Virus record (IMG/VR): IMGVR_UViG_3300022843_000005
Span: 1-34,975 of that record
Length of the DNA: 34,975 nt
From: a virus
Strand: one strand, 5' to 3'
Below are positions 10,922 through 31,343 of this stretch, one piece after another. The notes beneath the pieces are model-generated. The model saw only the letters and a program-made list of their open reading frames with translations. It was not told the DNA's origin and made no database searches. A program made the translations under genes and the position numbers. The first letter of the stretch is position 1. Every line of letters begins with the position of its first letter.

Positions 10922-12304
10922 ATGACTGAGAAAGATGTGTTAAGGACAGCACTCGAAAGCAGTTTACTTTTGTTTGCAATGTATTTGTATAAAGAGAATC
11001 ATAATAGAAACTTTATACCTGCACCTCATTTAGATAAAATATGTGATACATTAGAGCGTGTTTATAATGGTGAGATTAAACGCCTTATAATAAACATGCC
11101 ACCTAGGTATGGAAAGACAGAGTTAGCCATTAAGATGTTCATAGGTTGGTGTCTTGCTCGTAATCCTTCATCTAAATTCCTACACTTATCTTATTCCGAT
11201 TCATTAGCCTTAGACAATTCAAGTCAGACAAAAGAGTATATTAATTCAGAGCCATATCAGAACCTTTGGAGTATGAACTTAAAGAAGGACGCACAAAGCA
11301 AAAGTAAATGGTTTAACGATGACGGTGGAGGAGTTTATGCTACATCATCAGGTGGTGCAATCACAGGATTTGGAGCAGGGTCTACAACTCTAGGAGGGTT
11401 CGGTGGTGCTATTATAATAGATGACCCATTGAAACCAGATGACGCATTCAGTGATGTTAAGAGACGATCAGTAAACGAACGATACAACAATACAATACGC
11501 TCAAGGGTAAACAGTAGAGACACGCCTATCATCTTAATCATGCAAAGGCTACATGAGGATGACCTAAGTGGGTATTTATTAGGGGGTGGCTCTGGTGAGG
11601 AGTGGGAGCATCTTTGTCTGCCTGCATTGAGTGAAGATAATAAACCATTGTGGAAACAGAAGCATACGTTTAAAGAACTCGAGAGCATACGCCAAGCAAA
11701 TGCATACACATTCGCAGGACAGTATCAACAGAAGCCCGCACCAGATGAAGGGGGTGAATGGAAGAAAGAATGGTTTGAGATTATAAATATAAAAGACATA
11801 CCTTTAAATACTCTTAAATGGGAGTTTATAATTGATGGTGCATATACAAAGAACACTGCAAACGATCCTACAGGGTATCAAGTGGGTGCTAAATACAAGA
11901 ACGATTACATTATACTTAGTTCGGTAGATAAGTACTTAGAACTTCCTGAACTATTAAAAGACATACCCAAATACATAGAAGCGTTACCTGTTAAAATTGG
12001 ATTGATAAAGATTGAACCAAAGGCAAGTGGTAAATCTTTAAAGCAAATGATTAAGGCGAGTACTAATTATAATGTTACTGAAATTAAAAGCGACTTTGTA
12101 AACAATTCTAAGATTGAGAATGTACGTGCAACTTCTAATTATATCGAAGGTGGTCGTGTTAAGATAATCAAAGGGAGTTGGAATCAGCACTTTTTAGACC
12201 AAGTAGGAACGTTTCCTAATGCTAAACATGATGAACATATTGATTTAACGTGCTATGGTATTGAGTCAAATCTAATGAATAACAATAGAATAGAAATAGG
12301 ATGA
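10922..12304 (+). CDS. terL: Terminase large subunit
   Basis: This is the packaging motor ATPase and nuclease. The Walker A segment is PPRYGKT at residues 60-66, Walker B is IIIDDP at 164-169, and the nuclease domain starts near IIDGAYT at 303-309, with its first acidic metal ligand and later KHDEHID near the C-terminus. RLHEDDLSGYLL (209-220) is the conserved stretch after the ATPase core. At 460 residues it is of usual length. It begins directly after terS and ends in an ATGA overlap with a methyltransferase gene. Confidence 0.92.
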   Translation: MTEKDVLRTALESSLLLFAMYLYKENHNRNFIPAPHLDKICDTLERVYNGEIKRLIINMPPRYGKTELAIKMFIGWCLARNPSSKFLHLSYSDSLALDNSSQTKEYINSEPYQNLWSMNLKKDAQSKSKWFNDDGGGVYATSSGGAITGFGAGSTTLGGFGGAIIIDDPLKPDDAFSDVKRRSVNERYNNTIRSRVNSRDTPIILIMQRLHEDDLSGYLLGGGSGEEWEHLCLPALSEDNKPLWKQKHTFKELESIRQANAYTFAGQYQQKPAPDEGGEWKKEWFEIINIKDIPLNTLKWEFIIDGAYTKNTANDPTGYQVGAKYKNDYIILSSVDKYLELPELLKDIPKYIEALPVKIGLIKIEPKASGKSLKQMIKASTNYNVTEIKSDFVNNSKIENVRATSNYIEGGRVKIIKGSWNQHFLDQVGTFPNAKHDEHIDLTCYGIESNLMNNNRIEIG

Positions 12305-13049: not shown

Positions 13050-13700
13050 ATGAAGTTAAAAGCAATCATTCCAGAAGATATAAGCGATATAATTCTAAGC
13101 CAATACCAAGAGTATGAAGCCTTGAATGATAAGTTGCTAGATGAGAGTATTGAAGTGGAGGAGTATAACAAACAAAAGATTTCTTTATTCTCTGGAATTC
13201 CTTATAATAGAATGAGTCAAGTATCATACAAAGACTTTGCAAGTTTGCTTACAGATATAGATAAAGCAATAAGTCAAGAATGTAAGTTTGTAGATAGGTT
13301 CTTTTTAGATGGTATTGAGTTCGGTTTTATTCCAAACTTTGACAAGGTGTCAAGTGGAGAGTACTTTGATATGCAGGCATATAGTAAAGAGTTAGAAGCG
13401 GGTAAAGGAATGCCAGTTGAAACACTACATAGTTTAATGGCTGTTATATTTAGACCTGTTAAAAAGAAGGATAAGTTAAAGAACTATAGTATAAAAGAAT
13501 ACAAAGGGACAGAGAAGTATGGGGAGTTAATGAAGCAAACACCTATGCATATAGTAAAGGGTGCGATTGTTTTTTTTTTGAGTTTGTCGAAGGAATTACA
13601 GAGGCATATCCTGAAGTGTACAGTGGAGGCTCAAGCGAAGGAGCACAAGCAAGCGACTTCTTTGGAAAATGGGGATGGTATGATACCCTCAACGAATTAG
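13050..13700 (+). CDS. Tail assembly chaperone-like protein, 0-frame product
   Basis: The 216-residue product matches a Bacteroidota phage family with LSQYQEYEAL near the N-terminus, VDRFFLDGIEFGFIPNFDKV in the middle and a block EYKGTEKYGELMKQTPMHIV then KGAIVFF. I compare it with gpG-type tail chaperones, which prevent tape-measure aggregation. The last 39 residues after T10 (13570-13579) look non-native. The -1 frame continues with family-like sequence to 13822, so a shorter and a frameshifted longer product are likely, as in lambda G/GT. The tape measure is 8 kb downstream, which is unusual. A late promoter element sits just upstream. Confidence 0.6.
   Translation: MKLKAIIPEDISDIILSQYQEYEALNDKLLDESIEVEEYNKQKISLFSGIPYNRMSQVSYKDFASLLTDIDKAISQECKFVDRFFLDGIEFGFIPNFDKVSSGEYFDMQAYSKELEAGKGMPVETLHSLMAVIFRPVKKKDKLKNYSIKEYKGTEKYGELMKQTPMHIVKGAIVFFLSLSKELQRHILKCTVEAQAKEHKQATSLENGDGMIPSTN
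13570..13579 (+). other. T10 slippery tract (probable -1 frameshift or slippage site)
   Basis: Ten consecutive T lie in the 0-frame as codons GTT TTT TTT TTG. A -1 slip on T-TTT-TTT moves reading into the frame that runs to 13822. Alternatives are transcriptional slippage on T10, or a miscounted homopolymer: 8 or 11 T would give one continuous gene. Confidence 0.7.
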
Positions 13701-13822
13701 CAAAGGGTAAGCCTTGGAAGTATAAGTTTATAGAAGAGTGGAATGTCCATGAAATGCACGTGTATCTAGCACATAAAATTGATAAGCAGAAGTTGAAAGC
13801 ACAATTAAGGAATAAGAAATGA
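13577..13822 (+). CDS. -1-frame extension of the tail chaperone-like protein (GT-like C-terminal part)
   Basis: In the -1 frame relative to 13050, reading from the T10 tract gives FEFVEGITEAYPEVYSGGS, then FFGKWGWYDTLNELAKG, a Trp-rich segment, and a Lys-rich tail ending at TGA 13820-13822. The FGKWGWYxTLxELAxG pattern is what I expect at the C-terminus of this family, and the stop overlaps the next ATG (13819) as ATGA, so this frame is the translated one. A GTG at 13616 could serve as an independent start but would drop conserved residues. The frameshift fusion would be about 257 residues. Confidence 0.65.
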   Translation, partial: FEFVEGITEAYPEVYSGGSSEGAQASDFFGKWGWYDTLNELAKGKPWKYKFIEEWNVHEMHVYLAHKIDKQKLKAQLRNKK

Positions 13823-14241
13823 TAAAATTAACAAAAACAAGATTAGTGTCTGCGTTTCCAGGAGCAGGTAAAACATACTTTTACGGTCTTGGTTTATCAT
13901 GTATTGATAGCGACAGTAGTACATTCAATAAAGTGGACTTTCCAAGTAATTATATTGAGAATATAAAAAACAATATTGGAAAATTTAATTATATTCTTAT
14001 AAGTTCTCACGAAAATGTGAGGGAAGCGTTAGTTGATAGTGGGTTAAACTTTACATTAGTTTATCCTGATATATCTTTAAAAGATGAATATTTAAAAAGG
14101 TATAAAAATAGAGGTAGTGCAGATGGGTTTATAAATTTATTAGATAAGAACTGGAATGAATGGATTACACAGTTGCAAAATCAAAAAGGATGTACTCATA
14201 TAGTTTTGAAAAAAAATCAATTTATTAGCAACGTTATATGA
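13819..14241 (+). CDS. P-loop nucleotide kinase-like protein
   Basis: The Walker A motif is in SAFPGAGKTYF (residues 11-21, with G15, G17, K18 and T19). It is followed by SCIDSDSSTF, KVDFPSNYIENIK, ILISSHENVREAL, LVYPDISLKDEYLKRYKNRG and a C-terminal NWNEWI block. I recognise this order as a small phage P-loop NTPase family resembling adenylate or nucleoside kinases. At 140 residues it lacks an obvious lid domain. It overlaps both neighbours as ATGA. Its place among tail and neck genes is odd for a metabolic enzyme; it may act on nucleotides late in infection or have another role. Confidence 0.65.
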   Translation: MIKLTKTRLVSAFPGAGKTYFYGLGLSCIDSDSSTFNKVDFPSNYIENIKNNIGKFNYILISSHENVREALVDSGLNFTLVYPDISLKDEYLKRYKNRGSADGFINLLDKNWNEWITQLQNQKGCTHIVLKKNQFISNVI

Positions 14242-14693
14242 ACCACTACACAGAACTATTAAGATACGTTAGAAGTCTCTCGGATGAAGATCCTTTTGTG
14301 AACACAACAACGCAAGGGATTAATGAAGAGATGGATTTAGACAAGGGTAATATCTTCCCATTGTTTAATATTGAATTGTTCGACGCTACTTTTCCAAATA
14401 ATACAGTTACTTTTCAATTAGAAATGACTTGTTTACAGCAAAGAGATACAAATAAAACTATTGATGTTGATAAGTTCTGGCTACAGGATAACAAGGTAGA
14501 TAATTTTAACGAAACTTTAGCAGTACTCAACAGGGTAGTCGGTAAGATGCGAAAGGATTTTGGTGACACTAATATATCAATCGACGAGCCAAGCATTGGG
14601 AAGTTAGAAGATTTCGGAGTGAACAATTTAGACGGTTGGAGTTTAACCACTACGGTGACCATGCCGAATGTTAATATAGATTTATGCAGTTAG
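14238..14693 (+). CDS. Neck/tail completion-type structural protein
   Basis: The 151-residue protein starts MNHYTELLRYVRSLSDEDPF and contains INEEMDLDKGNIFPLFNIEL, TFQLEMTCLQQRD and a C-terminal LDGWSLTTTVTMPN. The mixed beta pattern and the position before an HK97 gp10-like gene suggest a tail terminator or completion protein. In siphoviruses this slot joins the tail tube to the head connector. The exact role is inferred from gene order. Both ends overlap neighbouring genes, which suggests coupled translation. Confidence 0.55.
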   Translation: MNHYTELLRYVRSLSDEDPFVNTTTQGINEEMDLDKGNIFPLFNIELFDATFPNNTVTFQLEMTCLQQRDTNKTIDVDKFWLQDNKVDNFNETLAVLNRVVGKMRKDFGDTNISIDEPSIGKLEDFGVNNLDGWSLTTTVTMPNVNIDLCS

Positions 14694-15217
14694 GTGTAAA
14701 GAATGCTTTAGACAAGTTTGGTAAGTCGGTTGTAAAGCAATCAAGAACGCAGCTGTCAAAGAAGAAAAAGAATGCAAGTAAAGCGTTGTATAATTCTATT
14801 GACTACGATCTAAAGGTTAGTAAGAATAGTTTTCAGATGTCTTTTAGTATGGAGAATTATGGAACGTTCGTAGATAAAGGAGTTAAAGGTGTTGGAGGTA
14901 CAAAGGCAGACGGTACTCAATGGAAGAAAAAGAGAGTTGTGGGTAGTAAGTTCAAGTACACAAATAAGAAGCCACCAGCAAGCGCATTTGATAATTGGAT
15001 AGTTAGAAAAGGAATAGCACCAAGAAACAAAGGAGGGCAATTTACAACAAGAAAAGGTTTGCAATTTGCTATTGCTAATAGTGTTTATCATACAGGATTA
15101 GAAACTACTAACTTTTTTACACGCCCCTTTGAAGTTGCTTTTAAACAATTACCAGATGAGTTAGTTGAGGCTTACGGTTTGGAGGTTGACACGTTAATAG
15201 AAAAATTAGTATTATGA
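14684..15217 (+). CDS. HK97 gp10-like neck/tail completion protein
   Basis: At 177 residues it has the pattern of HK97 gp10-like proteins: a basic N-terminal helix (KSVVKQSRTQLSKKKKNA), MENYGTFVDKGVKGVGG around residues 56-72, a basic loop and a C-terminal helix. The YGTFVDKGxxG element is the most telling. In siphoviruses this protein sits at the head-tail junction. It overlaps the previous gene by ten bases and the next by four. Confidence 0.65.
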   Translation: MQLGVKNALDKFGKSVVKQSRTQLSKKKKNASKALYNSIDYDLKVSKNSFQMSFSMENYGTFVDKGVKGVGGTKADGTQWKKKRVVGSKFKYTNKKPPASAFDNWIVRKGIAPRNKGGQFTTRKGLQFAIANSVYHTGLETTNFFTRPFEVAFKQLPDELVEAYGLEVDTLIEKLVL

Positions 15218-21304: not shown

Positions 21305-21457
21305 ATGTTAGGAAATACAATAGCAATATTACAAAGCGATAAGTTCTACGGAGCGGGTGAGTTCACTGAATTAGCCAAGGGAAAGAATGAACTTGTAACT
21401 GATTGGAGAGGTTTTAAAGACAAAATAATTAGGATATGGCGATCGTTAAAGAAATAA
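21305..21457 (+). CDS. Small protein overlapping the tape measure start (50 aa)
   Basis: ATG 21305, two bases after the previous stop, opens 50 codons beginning MLGNTIAILQSDKFYGAGEF and ending RIWRSLKK. Its last 22 bases overlap the start of the tape measure gene in another frame. Composition is protein-like, and it closes the gap between two genes, so it is probably real. Function unknown. Confidence 0.5.
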   Translation: MLGNTIAILQSDKFYGAGEFTELAKGKNELVTDWRGFKDKIIRIWRSLKK

Positions 21458-23094
21458 TAATCAAAGCAGATGCAGAAGATGCAATGACTGAAACCGAAAA
21501 ACTAACCAACGCTATAGATAAGTTGTCCGGAGAGGTTAGTGGATTAGGAAAAGACTTTGAAGAAACGGCTGATAAATCAAAAAAATCAACCAGTAAAATA
21601 TCTAAAGGATTTAAAGCGGTAGGCACTGCATTTAAAACTATAGGGCTAGGGATTGTGATTGCTTTATTTGCTAAACTTACAGAGGTTTTAAGTAAAAACC
21701 AAAAGGTAATGGATATATTTTCAAACGTAATGAAGTCTTTAGAGATAGCCTTTAAAGATTTGTTTGATTTCGTTACTTCTAATTTTATACCAGCATTTGA
21801 AAAAGTTAAGGCTTTCTTTGAAAATCTTACTTTTGATAAAATAAAAAAAGCAATACAAAAGGATTTAATTGAAAGATTTCAATCAGCACTAGAGGTTGTG
21901 GGATTCTTAGGGGATGCCATGGTGAAATTTTTTAAAGGTGATTTTGCTGGGTCGTTAGATTCTGTTAAAGAAGCAGGAAAAGAACTTGTAGACGTTGTAA
22001 CGGGTGTTGACGATACAGTAGGTAAAGTTACTGAAACAGTTACAAAAGCGGTTAAATCAATAACCAGTTACGCTAAAGAAACATATAGCGCAGCCGATGC
22101 TATTACAGAATTAGGTAATAGAGCGTTACTTGCTCAAGCAGTTAATCAAGGATTGATTGAGAAATACGATAGACAAGCAGAGCAACAGAGACAGATAAGA
22201 GATGACGAGTTTAGGTCGATGGAAGATAGAATTGCAGCCAATAATAAACTTGGTGAGATTTTAGAAGAGCAAGAGAAAACAATGCTTAAAAATGCCGAGT
22301 TATCAATCGCTGCTGCTGCTAATGAGTTAGCTTTAAATGATAATATAGAAAATCAAATCGCTTTAATAGAAGCCAAGAATGAGAAAATGGCTATTCAGGC
22401 GCAAGTCGAAGGATTCAGAAGTGAGCAGTTAATAAATACAAACTCCTTATTAAGAGAACAAGGCGAAATTGAACAGGCTGCTTTAGATGCTATAATTGCA
22501 AATGAAGCTGAAAAGAAAAAAATAAGAGACAAGGCAGCAGCAGAAGAAATAGCACAAGATAAAGCGGTGGCTGCTGCTAAAAAAGGAATACGAGAAAGTA
22601 ACATAAGCAGCGTCGCAGGGGGGTTGAGTTTATTAGCAGCATTAGGTAAAAAAAGTGCTGCTTTACAAGCTGCTGCGTTAATAGGTGAGCATGGTGCAAA
22701 TATAGCAAAGCAAATAATATCAACACAAGCAGCAAACGCAGGAGCATTAGCAACACCTCAAGCAATATTAACAAGTGGCGCATCAGCAATTCCAGTAATA
22801 GCAGCAAATAAATTAAACTTAGGGTTAGGATTAGCAGCTAGTGGAATTGCTTTAGGAAAAGGATTAGCCTCTTTAAAACAAAGTGGTGGAGGTGGATCGA
22901 GTTCTCCGAGTGGAGGAGCATCTGGTGGAGGAGCACCCGCGCCATCATTTAGTTTGGTTGAGGGAACGGGCTCTTCTCAAATAGCCGAATCTTTACAAAA
23001 TCAAAAAACTCCACTGAAAGCATATGTTGTTTCTGGAGATGTATCTAACGCACAAGCTTTGGATCGAAACATAATAAATAATAGTAGTTTATAG
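21436..23094 (+). CDS. Tape measure protein
   Basis: The protein, 552 residues, sets tail length. The N-terminus is a coiled-coil region (DAMTETEKLTNAIDKLSGEV), then a hydrophobic stretch (GLGIVIALFAKLTEVLS), long Lys/Glu/Ala-rich coiled coils (about 225-400), a small-residue-rich hydrophobic segment (about 400-475), a Gly/Ser/Ala linker, and a C-terminus AYVVSGDVSNAQALDRNI that I associate with Bacteroidota phage tape measures. At about 0.15 nm per residue this implies a tail near 80 nm. The 3' end overlaps by six bases the convergent homing endonuclease gene. Confidence 0.82.
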   Translation: MAIVKEIIIKADAEDAMTETEKLTNAIDKLSGEVSGLGKDFEETADKSKKSTSKISKGFKAVGTAFKTIGLGIVIALFAKLTEVLSKNQKVMDIFSNVMKSLEIAFKDLFDFVTSNFIPAFEKVKAFFENLTFDKIKKAIQKDLIERFQSALEVVGFLGDAMVKFFKGDFAGSLDSVKEAGKELVDVVTGVDDTVGKVTETVTKAVKSITSYAKETYSAADAITELGNRALLAQAVNQGLIEKYDRQAEQQRQIRDDEFRSMEDRIAANNKLGEILEEQEKTMLKNAELSIAAAANELALNDNIENQIALIEAKNEKMAIQAQVEGFRSEQLINTNSLLREQGEIEQAALDAIIANEAEKKKIRDKAAAEEIAQDKAVAAAKKGIRESNISSVAGGLSLLAALGKKSAALQAAALIGEHGANIAKQIISTQAANAGALATPQAILTSGASAIPVIAANKLNLGLGLAASGIALGKGLASLKQSGGGGSSSPSGGASGGGAPAPSFSLVEGTGSSQIAESLQNQKTPLKAYVVSGDVSNAQALDRNIINNSSL

Positions 23095-23595
23095 TTTTAA
23101 CAGTTCTTTTTGATATGCTAAATGCGCCTTATACTCGTCATAAAACATTCCTAAGTTTTTCTTTTTTTTATTTATTACAATGGACGCTCTCCATTTTTTA
23201 GATTCATTAACCCATCTAACCCCAGTGTACACAGAAGAACCTTTAATAGTCCTAGAGCAATTTTGTCTATTTGTTATTATTTGTAAATTAACAGCCCTAT
23301 TGTCTGTTTTAGTGTTATTTATATGATCCACTACTAATTTATATCCGCAAGGAGTGTGGTCTAAAAACTTTTCAGCAACTAATTGATGTATGGTTCTTGT
23401 TTTTCTTATTTTGTTTTTATAAACATTAACAACTAAATACCCCGTGTTACTTACTACTTCTTTTAAGATCTTACTCTTAACTGTAAGTTTAATATTGTTT
23501 TTACGGTTCACTATTCTACTAAGACTTTTAACCCTACCTAAATTAGAAACTTTATACATTTCTTCATAACCTTTAATATCTTTCCAAATTTCCAT
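23089..23595 (-). CDS. NUMOD4-HNH-AP2 homing endonuclease
   Basis: This 168-residue protein has a NUMOD4 start (WKDIKGYEEMYKVSNLGRVK), an HNH_3-type nuclease with LVVDHINNTKTDNRAVNLQI, and an AP2-like DNA-binding end (YTGVRWVNESKKWRASIVIN then LGMFYDEYKAHLAY). Such free-standing endonucleases cut phage genomes lacking them and spread by repair. It is on the minus strand, convergent with and overlapping the tape measure gene. Its leader forms a pseudoknot (23606-23675). No intron is apparent. Confidence 0.88.
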   Translation of the reverse strand: MEIWKDIKGYEEMYKVSNLGRVKSLSRIVNRKNNIKLTVKSKILKEVVSNTGYLVVNVYKNKIRKTRTIHQLVAEKFLDHTPCGYKLVVDHINNTKTDNRAVNLQIITNRQNCSRTIKGSSVYTGVRWVNESKKWRASIVINKKKKNLGMFYDEYKAHLAYQKELLKL

Positions 23596-24969: not shown

Positions 24970-26061
24970 ATGAAAGTCTACGAGGCTGTATTTAATGAGG
25001 CAAAGAATAAGGGTGTTTGGGGCGTTTCGCTTGTGGAAGATCCTGCAATGGAAGGGCACTTTATCACACTATCAAAAGAGACTAAAATAGAATTAAAGAC
25101 TTTAGATGAGGAGCAAAGAATTATTATAGGTTTAGTATTAGAGCCTAATAAAAAGGTTTACAGGAATCAAGGCGGTGAAGAATTTGAAATATTCTTTTCA
25201 GAAGATACTGTAAAAGACTTATCACACAATTTTTTCAAACAAGGCTATCAAACTAATTCAAGTTTAGAGCATGGTGATTCAATCGAAGGTGTTTCATTCG
25301 TGGAAAGTTGGATTGTATTGGATTCTAACAATGATAAATCTAATGCCCTAGGATTTGATTATCCGAAAGGTAGTTGGGTTGCTACTATGAAAGTAGATAG
25401 TGATGAGGTTTGGGAAAGTTATATTAAAGATGGTAAAGTAAAAGGCTTTTCAATAGATGCTTTTGTTGAATTGCAGGAAGTTAAATTAAATAAAGATAAA
25501 CAAATGGCAAAAACAATTTTAGAAGAAATCAAAGACATTTCTAATTCTATTATGTTGACATTGAATCCTAAAAAGGAAGAGGTGAAACTAGGTAGTATTA
25601 ATTCAGTCGATGGAATGGCTTTTATGTATGACGGTGAAACACCAGAAGTAGGCGGGGCTGTATGGCTTATGGCTGAGGATGGTGAAACCAAAGTACCTGT
25701 TCCAGTAGGAGAACACGCTTTAGAAGGCGGTGGTATTCTTTCAGTAGTAGAAGAAGGCGTAATTGCTGGAATCGGAGTAAAAGAAGAAGAAGCACCAGCA
25801 GAATTAGCAGACCCTGCACCAGCAGCAACAGCAGCAGACGTAGCAGCAGAAATCAAAAGTGTATTGATTAAATATACAGAAGATTCTAAAGCAGAAAGAC
25901 TTGAATTTGAAAAGTCAATCAAGGCAGAACTTAAAACTTTCAAAGGTCAATTAGTAGAATTTGCTAATGAGCCAGCTACAAGTAAAACAGTTAGCAAACC
26001 AACTGTAAAAAAAGGGACAAAACAAAATTATATTGAATTTTTAAATAACAGTTTACAATAA
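24970..26061 (+). CDS. Prohead protease fused to scaffold (XkdF-like)
   Basis: The N-terminal 170 residues have the XkdF/S78-like protease pattern: VSLVEDPAMEGHF at 19-31, SSLEHGDSIEGVSFVESW at 97-114 with likely catalytic His101, and PKGSWVATMKVDSDEVWESY at 132-151 followed by GFSIDAF with likely Ser161. After KEEVKLGSINSVDGMAFMYD comes an Ala/Pro-rich linker (about 275-295) and a coiled-coil C-terminal part, as expected for a scaffold made as one protein with the protease. It directly precedes the major capsid gene. The late promoter element is just upstream. Catalytic residues are inferred by position. Confidence 0.75.
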   Translation: MKVYEAVFNEAKNKGVWGVSLVEDPAMEGHFITLSKETKIELKTLDEEQRIIIGLVLEPNKKVYRNQGGEEFEIFFSEDTVKDLSHNFFKQGYQTNSSLEHGDSIEGVSFVESWIVLDSNNDKSNALGFDYPKGSWVATMKVDSDEVWESYIKDGKVKGFSIDAFVELQEVKLNKDKQMAKTILEEIKDISNSIMLTLNPKKEEVKLGSINSVDGMAFMYDGETPEVGGAVWLMAEDGETKVPVPVGEHALEGGGILSVVEEGVIAGIGVKEEEAPAELADPAPAATAADVAAEIKSVLIKYTEDSKAERLEFEKSIKAELKTFKGQLVEFANEPATSKTVSKPTVKKGTKQNYIEFLNNSLQ

Positions 26062-26963
26062 TGGCAACAACAGTTAGTATAACAACAAACTTCGTAGGTG
26101 AAGTGGCTGGTGAGTACATCGCTCAAATGATACAAGAAGCGAATACGATCAGTGAGAATTTAATTACAGTGAGACCTAATGTGGTTTCACCAGAATTTGT
26201 AAGAAAGATACAAACGGCAGACGGGTTTGTAGATTACGCATGTGGATGGAATCCATCAGGCTCAACAACTTTAACAGAAAGAGAATTAGCACCTAAAAAA
26301 ATTAAGTGGGATTCAGAGTTTTGTAAAGAAGATTTCAGAAGTCTATGGACTGCTCAAGAAATGGGCTTTTCTGCACACAACGACAATTTACCTGCAACAG
26401 AACAGGCTGCAATTTTAGCTGATTACGGGCGTAGAGTGGCACGTAAGATTGACGTTGATATCTGGGAAGGTGATAACTCAGATGGTAGTTTGGCAGGAAT
26501 TATTCCAGCACTAGTAGCGGACGCAGATGTAATTGACGTAGCAGCACCTCAAGTAATTTCAGCAGCGAACGTTGAAGTGCAAGTAGGTAATTTCTTTGAT
26601 GCAATTCCAGACACAGTTTTAGAATCTGACGGAGTAGTTTACGGTGTATCTACAAACGTAATAAGAGCATTACGTAGAGCATACGGAGCACAAGCAAGAT
26701 CAAACGGAACTTTCTTAAAGCCAACTGAATTTGAATTTGAAGGGTATCTTTTAACAGAGATCAAAGCATTAAATGCTAACACAATGGTTGCTTACAACAA
26801 AAACCAAGTATTCTTTGGAACTGGTCTTTTATCTGATTTAAACGAGGTAAAAATCAAAGATATGGATGAGGTTGATTTATCTGGACAAGTAAGAATGAAG
26901 TTAGTAATGACAGGTGGCGTTCAATACGCTTACGGTGCTGAGATCGTTTTATACAGAGGTTAA
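26061..26963 (+). CDS. Major capsid protein
   Basis: At 300 residues this has the features of an HK97-fold capsid protein of the Bacteroidota phage type: an N-terminal arm without a long delta domain, KIKWDSEFCKEDFRSLW (about 92-108), a segment ADYGRRVARKIDVDIWEG (about 120-138), PDTVLESDGVVYGVSTNVIR, and a C-terminal GGVQYAYGAEIVLYRG. It begins at the last base of the protease stop codon and is followed by a strong terminator, the usual setting for the most abundant virion protein. Confidence 0.8.
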   Translation: MATTVSITTNFVGEVAGEYIAQMIQEANTISENLITVRPNVVSPEFVRKIQTADGFVDYACGWNPSGSTTLTERELAPKKIKWDSEFCKEDFRSLWTAQEMGFSAHNDNLPATEQAAILADYGRRVARKIDVDIWEGDNSDGSLAGIIPALVADADVIDVAAPQVISAANVEVQVGNFFDAIPDTVLESDGVVYGVSTNVIRALRRAYGAQARSNGTFLKPTEFEFEGYLLTEIKALNANTMVAYNKNQVFFGTGLLSDLNEVKIKDMDEVDLSGQVRMKLVMTGGVQYAYGAEIVLYRG

Positions 26964-26976
26964 GAAATAATATCAT

Positions 26977-27000
26977 AAAGGGGTGAGATTCCCCTTTTTT
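26977..27000 (+). terminator. Rho-independent terminator after the capsid gene
   Basis: AAAGGGG (26977-26983) pairs with CCCCTTT (26991-26997), with a seven-base loop and a T-run ending at 27000. It may be partly read through to supply the next gene, because no new promoter is visible before 27017. Confidence 0.85.
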
Positions 27001-27016
27001 AAAAAATTTATAGAAA

Positions 27017-27529
27017 ATGGCATGTGATATTACAGCAGGAAGAGCGAAAAAATGTTCTGATACATCAGGAGGTGTTGCTAAGTTATATTTGTACAATTAC
27101 GTAGAAGATCCTTTTACCATTAGTTCAAATCAGGCGACAGCAATGAATGTGGCTCTCGATGAGGCTTTCGAATACGATTTAGAGGGTGACGGGCATATCT
27201 TAGACGAGCAGTTAGTACCAAGCCGAGACGCAGGTACGAGAGTAAACACGCAAACGATTACAGCAATCCTTCAAAAGATAGACGCTGCAACGAGCGCGGA
27301 GATGAATTTAATAGCAGCAGGAACACCACAAGCAGTGGTTAAAGACAGAAACGGAAACTACTTTGCAGTAGGAATTACAGACGGTCTTAAATTTACAGTA
27401 GCAGTAAATACAGGAAGCGCAAAAGGAGATTTAAACGGCTACACTTTAACGGGTGTTTCAGAAGAGTCTTTATTAGCACCTTTATTAGATGCGTCAACGG
27501 TAACTGCATTTTTAGCAGTAGTTGCATAA
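27017..27529 (+). CDS. Virion protein of the MxCxITAGRAK type (possible tail tube)
   Basis: The 170-residue protein begins MACDITAGRAKKCSDTSGG and contains AVVKDRNGNYFAVGITDGL and DLNGYTLTGVSEESLLAPL. The N-terminus of the protein at 30141 is related (ITAGRAKRCSD, then AIVSDRNG), so the two are paralogues. It stands alone between two terminators, after the major capsid gene, as an abundant structural protein would. A tail tube or capsid-associated role is inferred from position and beta-rich composition. Confidence 0.6.
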   Translation: MACDITAGRAKKCSDTSGGVAKLYLYNYVEDPFTISSNQATAMNVALDEAFEYDLEGDGHILDEQLVPSRDAGTRVNTQTITAILQKIDAATSAEMNLIAAGTPQAVVKDRNGNYFAVGITDGLKFTVAVNTGSAKGDLNGYTLTGVSEESLLAPLLDASTVTAFLAVVA

Positions 27530-27551
27530 TCTAATCATTAATAATTTAAAG

Positions 27552-27582
27552 CCCTTTTCATTAATTTGTTAAGGGTTTTTTT
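27552..27582 (+). terminator. Rho-independent terminator
   Basis: CCCTT (27552-27556) pairs with AAGGG (27571-27575), followed by seven T. It closes the 27017 gene and is followed at once by the fourth late promoter element. Confidence 0.75.
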
Positions 27583-27589
27583 GTTTAAA

Positions 27590-27617
27590 GTAACAAATTA
27601 ACCGTTTTTTAGTTATA
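27590..27617 (+). promoter_or_regulatory. Candidate late promoter, copy 4
   Basis: GTAACAAA (27590-27597), 10 nt, TTTAGTTATA (27608-27617). It ends five bases before ATG 27623 and lies directly after a terminator, the expected place for a true promoter. It would drive the portal, fibre and lysis unit to the terminator at 33144. Confidence 0.8.
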
Positions 27618-27622
27618 AAGGT

Positions 27623-27955
27623 ATGAAGGTAATATCACCAACAGACACGACGCACGTAATTAAGATGATTCCTAGATTTTACACAGTAGGGACTGATTTG
27701 ACTTTGAACATAAAAGACGAGGCTGGGCGTATAGATGAGAGTGCAACTATAACAGACTTCACTTTATTAAATAGATACTTGAATTTAACGTTTACAGATG
27801 CGCAATTTTCTACATTGGACTTTTATGAAAACGGAAAGTATCAATTAAAAATTACAGATGTAGATTCTGGTGATATTCTTTATAGGGGGAAAATGATTGC
27901 CACTACACAAACAACGCAATCATATAAATTAACAAACGGATTATACACGGTATGA
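27623..27955 (+). CDS. Small virion-associated protein (110 aa)
   Basis: A beta-rich small protein with an Ig-like pattern (GTDLTLNIKDEAGRIDESAT, then YQLKITDVDSGDILYRGKM). It starts five bases after the late promoter element and overlaps the portal gene start by four bases. No family recognised; a structural role is likely from location. Confidence 0.6.
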   Translation: MKVISPTDTTHVIKMIPRFYTVGTDLTLNIKDEAGRIDESATITDFTLLNRYLNLTFTDAQFSTLDFYENGKYQLKITDVDSGDILYRGKMIATTQTTQSYKLTNGLYTV

Positions 27956-29607
27956 GCGATATACAATTAATAACACTAAAAAATTACGTTCGTCCTTCAC
28001 TTGAAGAGAACAAAGCGAAAGATTGGGTTTTAAACGGCAAAAATAACTCATTCTATCAGACTATTATAGATAGGGTAAACGGATCACCGACGAACTACGC
28101 AATAATCAGTTCTTATATAGATTTAATCTATGGTAAAGGTTTACGAGCAAAGAATGCAAAGTCTAACTTAGAAGCATGGACTAAGTTTAAATCGGTTATA
28201 ACTAAACAAGACATTCGTAAGATTATATCAGATAGAGAGTATTTCGGTGAGGCATCAATGGAGGTTATCCAGAGCAAAGGAAAAGGATTAAGTTCTATTA
28301 ATCACATACCTAAGAATTTAGTAGTCCCTGCGATTGAAAATGAAGATGGAGAAATCGCAAACTATTGGTTTAGTAGAGATTGGAGTGACATAACTAGAAA
28401 CAAACCCGATCCAATACCTGTATTTGAGGGTAAAGTAGAAAAAGAAATATTTGTTATTGCGCCATATAAGGCTGGTAAGAATTATTTTTCTGATCCAGAT
28501 TGGTTGGCAGCAATGCCTTACTGTGAGATGGAGGAGGAAATTGCAAATCTTAACATTAACGCTATTAAAAAAGGGTTAAGTGCTGGTTACATTATAAACA
28601 TTCCAGACGGTAACTCTTATGATGCTGAACAAAAAGAAGAGTTTAAAAGACAAGTTAAATTAAAGTTAACAAGCACAACGAATGCAAGTGATTTTATTAT
28701 ATCATTTAACGGAGTTGAGGAGCAAATTACTATAACTCCTTTTCCTGTAAACGATAATATCCATAAACAATGGCAATTCTTAACCGAGGAAAGCCGTCAA
28801 CAAATAATCACAGGGCACAAAGTAACAAGCCCAATGTTATTCGGCATAAAAGACAATACAGGATTCGGCAATAATGCAGATGAATTAGACACAGCCGAGG
28901 CTCAACTAATGAAAAGAGTGGTTGCACCTAAACAGCAACACATCATTGAAGCCTTAGAGACTATTTTAATTCAATACGGTATTAATTTAGAATTAGAGTT
29001 CATTCCTTTAACTGAAATTAAAGAAGAGCCTAAAGCGGTTGAGTTAAGTAGTGTTGAATGTTCGCATGATGATTTCGACGGAGTATTAGAGATGTACGCA
29101 GAAGAAGCACCAGAAGGTTACAGTTTAACAGATGGAGCAGAATTTGATTTACAACTAGCAGCAACATCTAAAAGTGACCAAGACACCGATAAATGGATAG
29201 TAAGGTATGCATACGATAAAGGTACAAGTAAAACGCCAGAAGGTAAAAGCAGAAGTTTCTGCAATAGAATGATGCGCCTTTCTAACGGTGGTAAAGTATT
29301 TAGAGAAGAGGACATTATAAAGATGGGCGATGATGGCGTAAACGGCAAATTTGCGCATACAGGCGGAACATACTCTATATGGTTATACGCTGGAGGTGTA
29401 AACTGTTATCATGTATGGCAAAGACGTATCTTTAAGAAAAAAGAACAGGAAAATGGAGACCTTTTTAAAGGAAACCCGATGCAAAATGTAAATCCTGTAA
29501 ACGTAAGCGAAGCAAAAAGACAAGGATGGAAGCACAAAGGCGATCCAAACGCAAGAGACGTATCAGTTCCAGAGATAAATAAGCCAAATAAAGGCAGTTT
29601 AAGATAG
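27952..29607 (+). CDS. Portal protein with extra C-terminal domain
   Basis: The N-terminal 350 residues resemble portal proteins of Bacteroidota phages: SSYIDLIYGKGL near the start, REYFGEASMEV, INHIPKNLVVPAIENEDGEI, and EESRQQIITGHKVTSPMLFG in the clip/stem region. The remaining ~190 residues form another domain with FCNRMMRLSNGGKVFREEDI, FAHTGGTYSIWLY and GGVNCYHVWQRR. The Cys and His spacing recalls minor head (MuF-type) proteins, so this may be a portal fused to a head-morphogenesis domain. The total of 551 residues is longer than a typical portal. Confidence 0.72.
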   Translation: MSDIQLITLKNYVRPSLEENKAKDWVLNGKNNSFYQTIIDRVNGSPTNYAIISSYIDLIYGKGLRAKNAKSNLEAWTKFKSVITKQDIRKIISDREYFGEASMEVIQSKGKGLSSINHIPKNLVVPAIENEDGEIANYWFSRDWSDITRNKPDPIPVFEGKVEKEIFVIAPYKAGKNYFSDPDWLAAMPYCEMEEEIANLNINAIKKGLSAGYIINIPDGNSYDAEQKEEFKRQVKLKLTSTTNASDFIISFNGVEEQITITPFPVNDNIHKQWQFLTEESRQQIITGHKVTSPMLFGIKDNTGFGNNADELDTAEAQLMKRVVAPKQQHIIEALETILIQYGINLELEFIPLTEIKEEPKAVELSSVECSHDDFDGVLEMYAEEAPEGYSLTDGAEFDLQLAATSKSDQDTDKWIVRYAYDKGTSKTPEGKSRSFCNRMMRLSNGGKVFREEDIIKMGDDGVNGKFAHTGGTYSIWLYAGGVNCYHVWQRRIFKKKEQENGDLFKGNPMQNVNPVNVSEAKRQGWKHKGDPNARDVSVPEINKPNKGSLR

Positions 29608-29610
29608 ATT

Positions 29611-30141
29611 ATGGCAATTAAATTATTTGAAACACCACAAGAAATAGCAAATACCACCATTTTAGGGGGGAATATTGATGTAGATAAGTACGCATTTGTC
29701 ATAAATAGCGTTATGATTACAACACTAGAGCCACTTTTAGGTAGCGAATTGTACGATAAGATACTAACAGACTGGACAGCCGACACTTTAGCAGGCGATT
29801 ATTTGACAATGTTCACAGAATTTATTAAACCGATAACAAAAAATGAATCTGCTGCTGAATATATAGAAATGTCTAGTTATACACTAGGCAATGGAGGTCT
29901 ATTTAAGCACTCACCAGATAACGCAGAAGTAGTAGACAAGGACGAAGCGCAGTTTTTAAGCGGTAAATATCATAATATCGCACAAATGTATATCCAAAGG
30001 TTTAATAAATGGATATGTAAAAATCCTATTACGGAATATAAGACCTCACAAGATGAAGTAAACGCCTCTAAAAGTTTAACGGTTCGGTCTGGTTGGTTCT
30101 TTGGCGAAGAGAACAAGAATTGTGATGATCTTTCCTGTTAA
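29611..30141 (+). CDS. Head-tail connector/adaptor protein
   Basis: The 176-residue protein begins MAIKLFETPQEIANTTILGG and has a helical body (EPLLGSELYDKILTDW, then YLTMFTEFIKPITKN) typical of adaptor proteins that stack below the portal. In Bacteroidota phages this place after the portal is held by such connectors. The last 20 residues contain a Cys pair. It starts three bases after the portal stop and shares a base with the start of the next gene. The family was not confirmed. Confidence 0.6.
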   Translation: MAIKLFETPQEIANTTILGGNIDVDKYAFVINSVMITTLEPLLGSELYDKILTDWTADTLAGDYLTMFTEFIKPITKNESAAEYIEMSSYTLGNGGLFKHSPDNAEVVDKDEAQFLSGKYHNIAQMYIQRFNKWICKNPITEYKTSQDEVNASKSLTVRSGWFFGEENKNCDDLSC

Positions 30142-31343
30142 TGATTTGCGGAATTACAGCAGGCAGGGCTAAAAGATGCAGCGATAGTATTGCAGGGTTC
30201 GATATTGTTTATCTATTTCCTTTTGTTAGTTACGATAGGTCTCAAATTATTTTGAATACTAATATTATAACTACATTTCCAGACACGCAGATATTTAAGT
30301 TTGAAGTATTAAACGCTAATTTGTCAGAAGAAATGAGTGAGGACGATGGAGGTACGTTTTACGATCAAAATTTAAGTTTTGACTTATCTAAATCTACGGT
30401 AGAGGACAATTTAGAATTAACTAAACTAATGGACAAGGATTATATGGCTATTGTATCAGACAGAAACGGTATATTTAGATTGTTAGGGACTTATAACGGA
30501 TTACAAACAGAGGTTACAAAGGTAACAGGGGGCGGTATGGCAGACTTTAATGGGTATAAGGTAACAATGGAAGGAAAGGAATCTTTGAACTCCTTATTCG
30601 TGTCTAATTTAGCAGACGCAGGATTTATAATAGATGAGGAATATTCATGTACTCCCTTTATGGTTAGTGCGGAGGAGTTGTCGTATAATCCTGTTAAATA
30701 CGGTTATTTGTATAACCATTACACAATTCAAGATGTTAGAAATATAGCAAATACAGGGTGGGGTGTTGCAGACAAATCAGAATATGAAGCATTAATGCTA
30801 TACTATGATTCTTCAGGAACTTATTTAAGTAATACTGCATCTACATTTTTAAAAGATGCGGACACTTCTAAATGGAGTGTTCCTTCAAATGGAGAGAACC
30901 AATCAAATCTTAACCTTGTAGGTTCAGGGTCAAGAAACGCATCAGGTGCATTTGCAAACTTGTTGAGTGTTTGTAGATTATGGAACAATGATACAGCAGT
31001 AGGTCAAGGTGTTGTTTCTCAAACTTTAGCAAATGAAGCTTATTTTTTAACATCAGTTGGAGCTGATGTATGGACAGTTGCTTTTGAAGAAGGTTATTCA
31101 ATAAGATTAATAAAAGACACCACAACTCTTTCAAATGGAGAATCTAGTACTTACACAGGTAATGATGGTAAAACATATCGCACTATCTGTATAGGAACTC
31201 AAGAATGGTTAGCGGATAACCTTGTAGAAACTTTATATAGAAATTTAGATTCAATACCAATAGTAACAAATAATATTACTTGGGCAGGTTTGTCAACAGG
31301 GGCAAGATGTAGTTATAATAATGATGAAGCCAACGCAATATAA
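30141..31343 (+). CDS. Virion protein with a circularly permuted FISUMP domain
   Basis: Residues 1-160 are paralogous to the 27017 protein (ITAGRAKRCSD, AIVSDRNG). Residues about 186-330 match the second half of a FISUMP (Fibrobacter succinogenes major paralogous) domain: YGYLYNHYTI, then WSVPSNGENQSN, then GYSIRLIKD. Residues 336-395 match the first half: GNDGKTYRTICIGTQEWLAD, then TGARCSYNND. The halves are in reversed order, so the domain is circularly permuted. FISUMP is lectin-like, so a cell-surface-binding role at the virion tip or capsid surface is plausible. Confidence 0.7.
   Translation: MICGITAGRAKRCSDSIAGFDIVYLFPFVSYDRSQIILNTNIITTFPDTQIFKFEVLNANLSEEMSEDDGGTFYDQNLSFDLSKSTVEDNLELTKLMDKDYMAIVSDRNGIFRLLGTYNGLQTEVTKVTGGGMADFNGYKVTMEGKESLNSLFVSNLADAGFIIDEEYSCTPFMVSAEELSYNPVKYGYLYNHYTIQDVRNIANTGWGVADKSEYEALMLYYDSSGTYLSNTASTFLKDADTSKWSVPSNGENQSNLNLVGSGSRNASGAFANLLSVCRLWNNDTAVGQGVVSQTLANEAYFLTSVGADVWTVAFEEGYSIRLIKDTTTLSNGESSTYTGNDGKTYRTICIGTQEWLADNLVETLYRNLDSIPIVTNNITWAGLSTGARCSYNNDEANAI

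Follow-up and report, generated by a model that had tools for sequence, protein, structure and literature searches.

The locus described here raises the question of whether a viral gene that appears to change its reading frame at a long run of T's is one damaged gene, two neighbouring genes or a single gene with two products, and, in the last case, which enzyme slips on the run. The window, by which we mean the whole stretch of DNA that was analysed, is the IMG/VR virus record IMGVR_UViG_3300022843_000005 (34,975 nt, positions 1 to 34,975). Comparison of homologous genes from marine phages leads us to suggest that the gene has two products and that these probably arise by transcriptional slippage at the T run, with the ribosome perhaps contributing.

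The slip-site gene and its reading frames

The 0-frame open reading frame extends from the ATG at 13050 to the stop at 13698-13700 and encodes 216 aa (unless stated otherwise, the features described below are on the + strand). Its N-terminal, 'G-like' domain occupies 174 codons (13050-13571) and was assigned by alignment, by AlphaFold2 modelling and by a match to PHROG 32199 (E 8e-8). Where this domain ends, a T10 slip site at 13570-13579 is read in the 0 frame as GTT TTT TTT TTG, and it encloses the in-frame heptamer T_TTT_TTT at 13571-13577 (0-frame codons TTT 13572-13574 and TTT 13575-13577). Past the site, the 0 frame continues as the tail of the unshifted product (13578-13700, with the stop at 13698-13700), and the -1 frame has no stop from the tract until the TGA at 13820-13822. 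The -1 frame encodes a C-terminal, 'T-like' extension of 81 codons plus the stop (13577-13822), which was recognised from alignments and has its relatives in PHROG 38404. The TGA overlaps, as ATGA, the ATG at 13819 of the next open reading frame (13819-14241), which belongs to PHROG 4182 and looks P-loop-like by eye. As computed, a -1 slip at the heptamer would give a fusion of 176 + 81 = 257 aa. The original prediction had proposed a T10 tract within a 0-frame gene, a -1 frame that continues past the tract until its stop overlaps the next ATG, and a fusion size of ~257 residues; all three agree with the sequence, and the coordinates of the tract are exact.

Runs of at least nine T's on the + strand of the window are confined to the slip site. 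The only other T8 on this strand (23162) falls in an open reading frame of the - strand (23089-23595) that lies among structural genes and resembles an HNH homing endonuclease (MEIWKDIKGYEEMYKVSNLGRVKS...). A run of nine A's at 2055-2063 is located inside the open reading frame 1947-2540 (IYKKKFPND), away from any gene junction.

Conservation of the run and of the frame relation

Homologues were collected by scanning viral contigs with both parts of the gene and with their alignments, and by scanning genome contigs once, which gave several hundred loci; the scan of genome contigs contributed two Bacteroidetes MAG contigs. Iterated profiles of the N and C parts yielded 290 distinct N+C sequences, which form 141 clusters at 80% at the nucleotide level. 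One further homologue (L031), whose C part is degraded, was excluded from the counts.

In 289 of the 290 distinct homologues, the C part lies in the -1 frame relative to the N part and a run of T8-T10 is found at the junction, the place equivalent to that of the slip site in the window. The run is T9 in 258 of these, T10 in 29 and T8 in two (at least nine T's in 287/289), and an in-frame T_TTT_TTT is present in 289/289, at most four bases from where the aligned C domain starts. Counted by clusters, a run of at least nine T's sits exactly at the frame junction in 139 of 141. Since runs of this length are rare elsewhere, occurring outside the slip site 10 times per 594 kb of related loci, the run at the junction is not due to chance. 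The C domains of these homologues diverge to about 25-30% identity. That the tract might programme a -1 shift, to be checked by comparing homologues for a conserved slippery site, had been put forward in the original prediction, and the frame relation in 289/290 strongly supports it. The sole homologue with another frame relation, L282 (around 1460-1500), has kept T10 and has its N frame broken about a dozen codons upstream, probably by an indel or an assembly error.

Long homopolymers are error-prone and mutable, and it is conceivable that the run is a sequencing or assembly error, such as the miscounted T-run that had been considered from the start, or a phase-variable (contingency) DNA tract in an otherwise single gene. 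However, both domains share one frame in none of the 290 distinct homologues, and the -1 relation is identical in runs of T8, T9 and T10, with agreement among many samples, independent assemblies and two isolates. As the relation is constant across the three lengths, the runs differ by substitution at their edges (e.g. TTG vs TGG after the run) and not by indels. The 0 frame, moreover, is kept open past the site. We reject the miscounted run, and consider an error or a contingency tract to have next to no probability.

The two isolates are the Nonlabens phages P12024L and P12024S (Inhavirus), whose domains are 24-30% identical to those of the window protein. Both domains, an exact T9 (12443-12451 in L194 and 3443-3451 in L195, respectively), the -1 relation and a position beside terL are found in each of them. 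Where we read one gene in the window, the records of these phages list the halves as two adjacent and separate hypothetical proteins (gp40/gp41 in P12024L, gp38/gp39 in P12024S), and a joined gene is absent from them. No isolate beyond these two was found in the phage collection that we queried with distant family members. P12024L and P12024S offer a culturable system for checking slippage.

That gene callers annotate P12024L and P12024S in this way would fit a C domain that is a separate gene with its own start (GTG at 13616 in the window, the ATG of gp41 in P12024L), the T run being incidental, and an open reading frame of 68 aa beginning at that GTG (13616-13822) fits it too. On the other hand, the conserved part of the -1 frame starts right at the tract, where an FFxxF motif shows little or no variation, and precedes any such start codon; the run is present in every relative. 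We therefore regard a separate gene as very improbable.

Two apparent products and the enzyme likely to slip

The fate of the 0 frame past the site bears on whether the unshifted product is used. In 99% of 139 clusters this frame has no stop within 20 codons of the site, compared with 42% expected, and in 60% it has none within 40 codons, compared with 18%; the expectation takes the -1 amino acid sequence and the gene's codon usage as given. Over the dozen or so codons 3' of the site, both frames are conserved; beyond them, the -1 frame alone carries conserved residues, consistent with the earlier proposal that the family-like sequence shifts to the -1 frame. That the 0 frame is kept open and that both frames are conserved near the site argue for dual coding rather than for a broken gene rescued by slippage, and the 0-frame and fusion products both appear to be in use. 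At the level of sequence, the run, the frame relation and both reading frames are conserved. A stop that comes early in the +1 frame after the run is nearly universal and was considered as a means of cleaning up after slippage. It is fully explained by the amino acids of the other two frames once both are fixed, and is not counted as evidence.

A frame change of this kind could be made, as in lambda G/GT, by programmed -1 ribosomal frameshifting alone at U_UUU_UUU, the T's flanking the heptamer being set by the encoded amino acids (hydrophobic-Phe-Phe-Phe/Leu). The heptamer is a legal one and in frame in all 289 homologues, the layout and the -1 direction match those of G/GT, and U_UU.U_UU.U is shift-prone in E. 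coli (PMC4066793). In most members, amino-acid constraint alone explains the T at p-1 and at p+7, and the Bacteroidetes ribosome may prefer UUU over UUC.

What speaks against this explanation is the final T of the heptamer (base p+6). When the -1 residue is Leu, a T→C change at p+6 alters neither encoded protein (Phe TTT→TTC; Leu TTR→CTR); it would turn the heptamer into U_UUU_UUC and break the run. This heptamer falls in the class H_HH.U_UU.Y, on which the ribosome is efficient in E. coli (PMC4066793), and should serve a ribosome equally well, yet it is found in 0 of 79 eligible clusters compared with the 37% expected by codon usage. Elsewhere in the gene, 37% of Leu codons are CTN, and control columns of Leu and Phe vary freely, having undergone 11-39 changes on the tree. 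As a signal read by the ribosome only would have no obvious reason to forbid U_UUU_UUC, the absence of the change favours the polymerase. A doubly synonymous site of this kind provides a comparative test that helps to separate transcriptional from ribosomal recoding.

The run is conserved in length more than its coding role would require. Relative to the codons, the run sits in three registers, and at least 10 register changes on the tree have kept its length at 9-10. The clusters (n=141) comprise 123 with T9, 2 with T8 and 16 with T10, compared with 88, 17 and 33 expected. The loss of one flanking T is matched by the gain of another, which again does not fit a ribosomal signal confined to the heptamer: where the two bases before the heptamer are TT (14 clusters), 13 of the 14 have no T after it, and 126 of the other 127 do. 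For this compensation Fisher's test gives p 2e-16, uncorrected for kinship. The independent events behind it number about five of each kind, which is not enough for a pairwise sign test.

A structure 3' of the site is a common but not obligatory stimulator of -1 ribosomal frameshifting. Among the 141 clusters, no pseudoknot-free RNA structure was enriched on either side of the site, and the mean z is about 0 downstream. The lack of a downstream structure tells against ribosomal frameshifting, but weakly, since ribosomal frameshifts without a stimulator have been reported for some tailed phages (PMC5009743). An intrinsic terminator at the T run was also looked for, and none was found. RNA polymerase slips on runs of more than eight T's (PMC3711429), nine A's or T's in a run give rise to mRNAs with extra nucleotides (PMC5009743), and the slippage of E. 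coli RNA polymerase is biased towards runs of T (PMC6260861).

It is the missing synonymous interruptions, together with the shifts of register in which 9-10 T's are kept, that lead us to favour transcriptional slippage over ribosomal frameshifting. Slippage by the polymerase had been one of the options in the original prediction, and from the 0/79 it is now the likelier of the two; frameshifting by the ribosome alone is possible but rather unlikely. The enzyme that slips and the ratio of the products are what we infer from these patterns. In the mechanism that we propose, most transcripts would have as many U's as the template specifies and be translated into the 216-aa 0-frame protein, made of the N domain and the dual-coded tail. 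In a fraction of transcripts, RNA polymerase would realign at the T9-T10 run, so that one U gained (or two lost) in the mRNA brings the -1 frame into register. Ordinary translation of the slipped mRNA would then fuse the N domain to the conserved 81-residue C domain, giving a protein of about 257 aa. Some ribosomal slippage at the enclosed U_UUU_UUU could add to this product, and both machines may act at one site.

Transcriptional slippage at this run would resemble the cases known from bacteria, namely Shigella mxiE/spa13, Citrobacter tssM1 (A11), Thermus dnaX (A9) and IS elements, in that a long A/T homopolymer lies at the frame junction, both products are in use and a ribosomal stimulator was not found. 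Unlike those cases, it would occur in a tailed-phage gene family that is conserved in hundreds of divergent phages. Recoding of the G/GT type is known already, and we rate the transcriptional mechanism as the novel element. In the open literature that we searched, we found no earlier report of the frameshift, or of any phage tail-chaperone gene that uses transcriptional slippage; many subscription papers lie outside that search, as does Xu et al. 2004 (Mol Cell), the main survey of frameshifts in phage tail genes. Slippage by the polymerase, if true, would be the first conserved case in tailed phages within the literature searched, a claim to which we give an even chance. If it is RNA polymerase that slips, tailed phages would have a second route to a product ratio of the G/GT type, set by the length of the homopolymer and by the polymerase.

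The gene product and its genomic setting

Given the layout, it is natural to compare the gene with lambda G/GT and its analogues in long-tailed dsDNA phages. As in those systems, a short open reading frame is overlapped by a -1 open reading frame, and a slippery site close to the end of the short one joins the two; there appears to be a use for both products, and the gene is part of a tailed-phage gene block. The differences are that a T9-T10 homopolymer takes the place of a plain heptamer at the slip site, that the 0-frame tail past the site is about 25-70 codons long, that the gene adjoins the terminase gene and precedes the probable tape-measure gene by about 8 kb, and that neither the sequence nor the fold of the family is significantly similar to known chaperones.

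With their N domains, 27 of 27 diverse members match PHROG 32199. PHROG 38404 matches the C domains of 7 of the 27 members (best E 6e-44); the C domain of the window falls short and has no convincing match to any PHROG. These two PHROGs, which are listed separately, appear to correspond to the two parts of a single recoded gene that hundreds of phages carry, and annotation is systematically incomplete there. The AlphaFold2 model of the N domain has a mean pLDDT of 89.5, and that of the C domain is poor (pLDDT 59). A fold search of the PDB with the N domain gave no convincing match. The viral matches of the N model are uncharacterised proteins, P12024S itself and, weakly, gp10 of Flavobacterium phage 6H and one BFVD model named tail assembly chaperone (E 0.09). 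In one or two members there are weak Pfam matches to Phage_TAC_7 (E 0.062) and Phage_Gp15 (E 0.022), and one member matches PHROG 166, 'tail protein', at E 1.5e-4. Alignment by hhalign to the chaperones of A118, TP901-1, lambda and HK97 gave a probability of at most 5%, and no significant match to known chaperone families was obtained in Pfam, in the PDB or with profiles.

The gp10 of phage 6H (L358, 10030-10927, - strand) is a weak relative of the N domain (profile E 0.0029), with the annotated tape measure gene ~2.6 kb downstream of it. It is followed by an unannotated open frame; it has no T run, and the frames at its junction are confused.

The neighbours of the gene are themselves conserved. 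The terminase large subunit is encoded at 10922-12304 (PHROG 38, E 5e-91), and terminase-like open reading frames lie upstream of the slip-site gene in 113 of 139 loci. On the other side, a neighbour of PHROG 30964 (14238-14693), for which neck or tail-terminator gene would be our guess, has a relative at most two open reading frames downstream in 130/139 loci. It is followed by a neighbour of PHROG 29822 (14684-15217), with a downstream relative in 119/139 loci, which we guess to be HK97 gp10-like. The probable tape measure gene, picked out by eye, begins at 21436, ~8 kb past the slip-site gene (virion structural protein by PHROG). The slip-site gene thus does not occupy the usual place of a chaperone gene, with the gene for the major tail protein on one side and that for the tape measure on the other, but has terL upstream and the relatives of PHROG 30964 and 29822 downstream.

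The original prediction had described the gene as a tail chaperone of the lambda G/GT type. The layout, present in 289/290 homologues, stands; the matches to chaperone families are not significant and the gene lies beside the terminase. A G/GT-like tail assembly chaperone pair is a plausible reading, and from layout and gene context we infer, as our best guess, such a role in Bacteroidetes phages.

Elsewhere in the window, the open reading frames 27017-27529 and 30141-31343 have the N-terminal family PHROG 19091 in common, the second with a long additional C-terminal part, and are possibly paralogues of the major tail protein. The head genes (protease, capsid-like, portal; 24970-30141) come after tail-like genes, which suggests that the order of the modules is unusual or that the record is circularly permuted.
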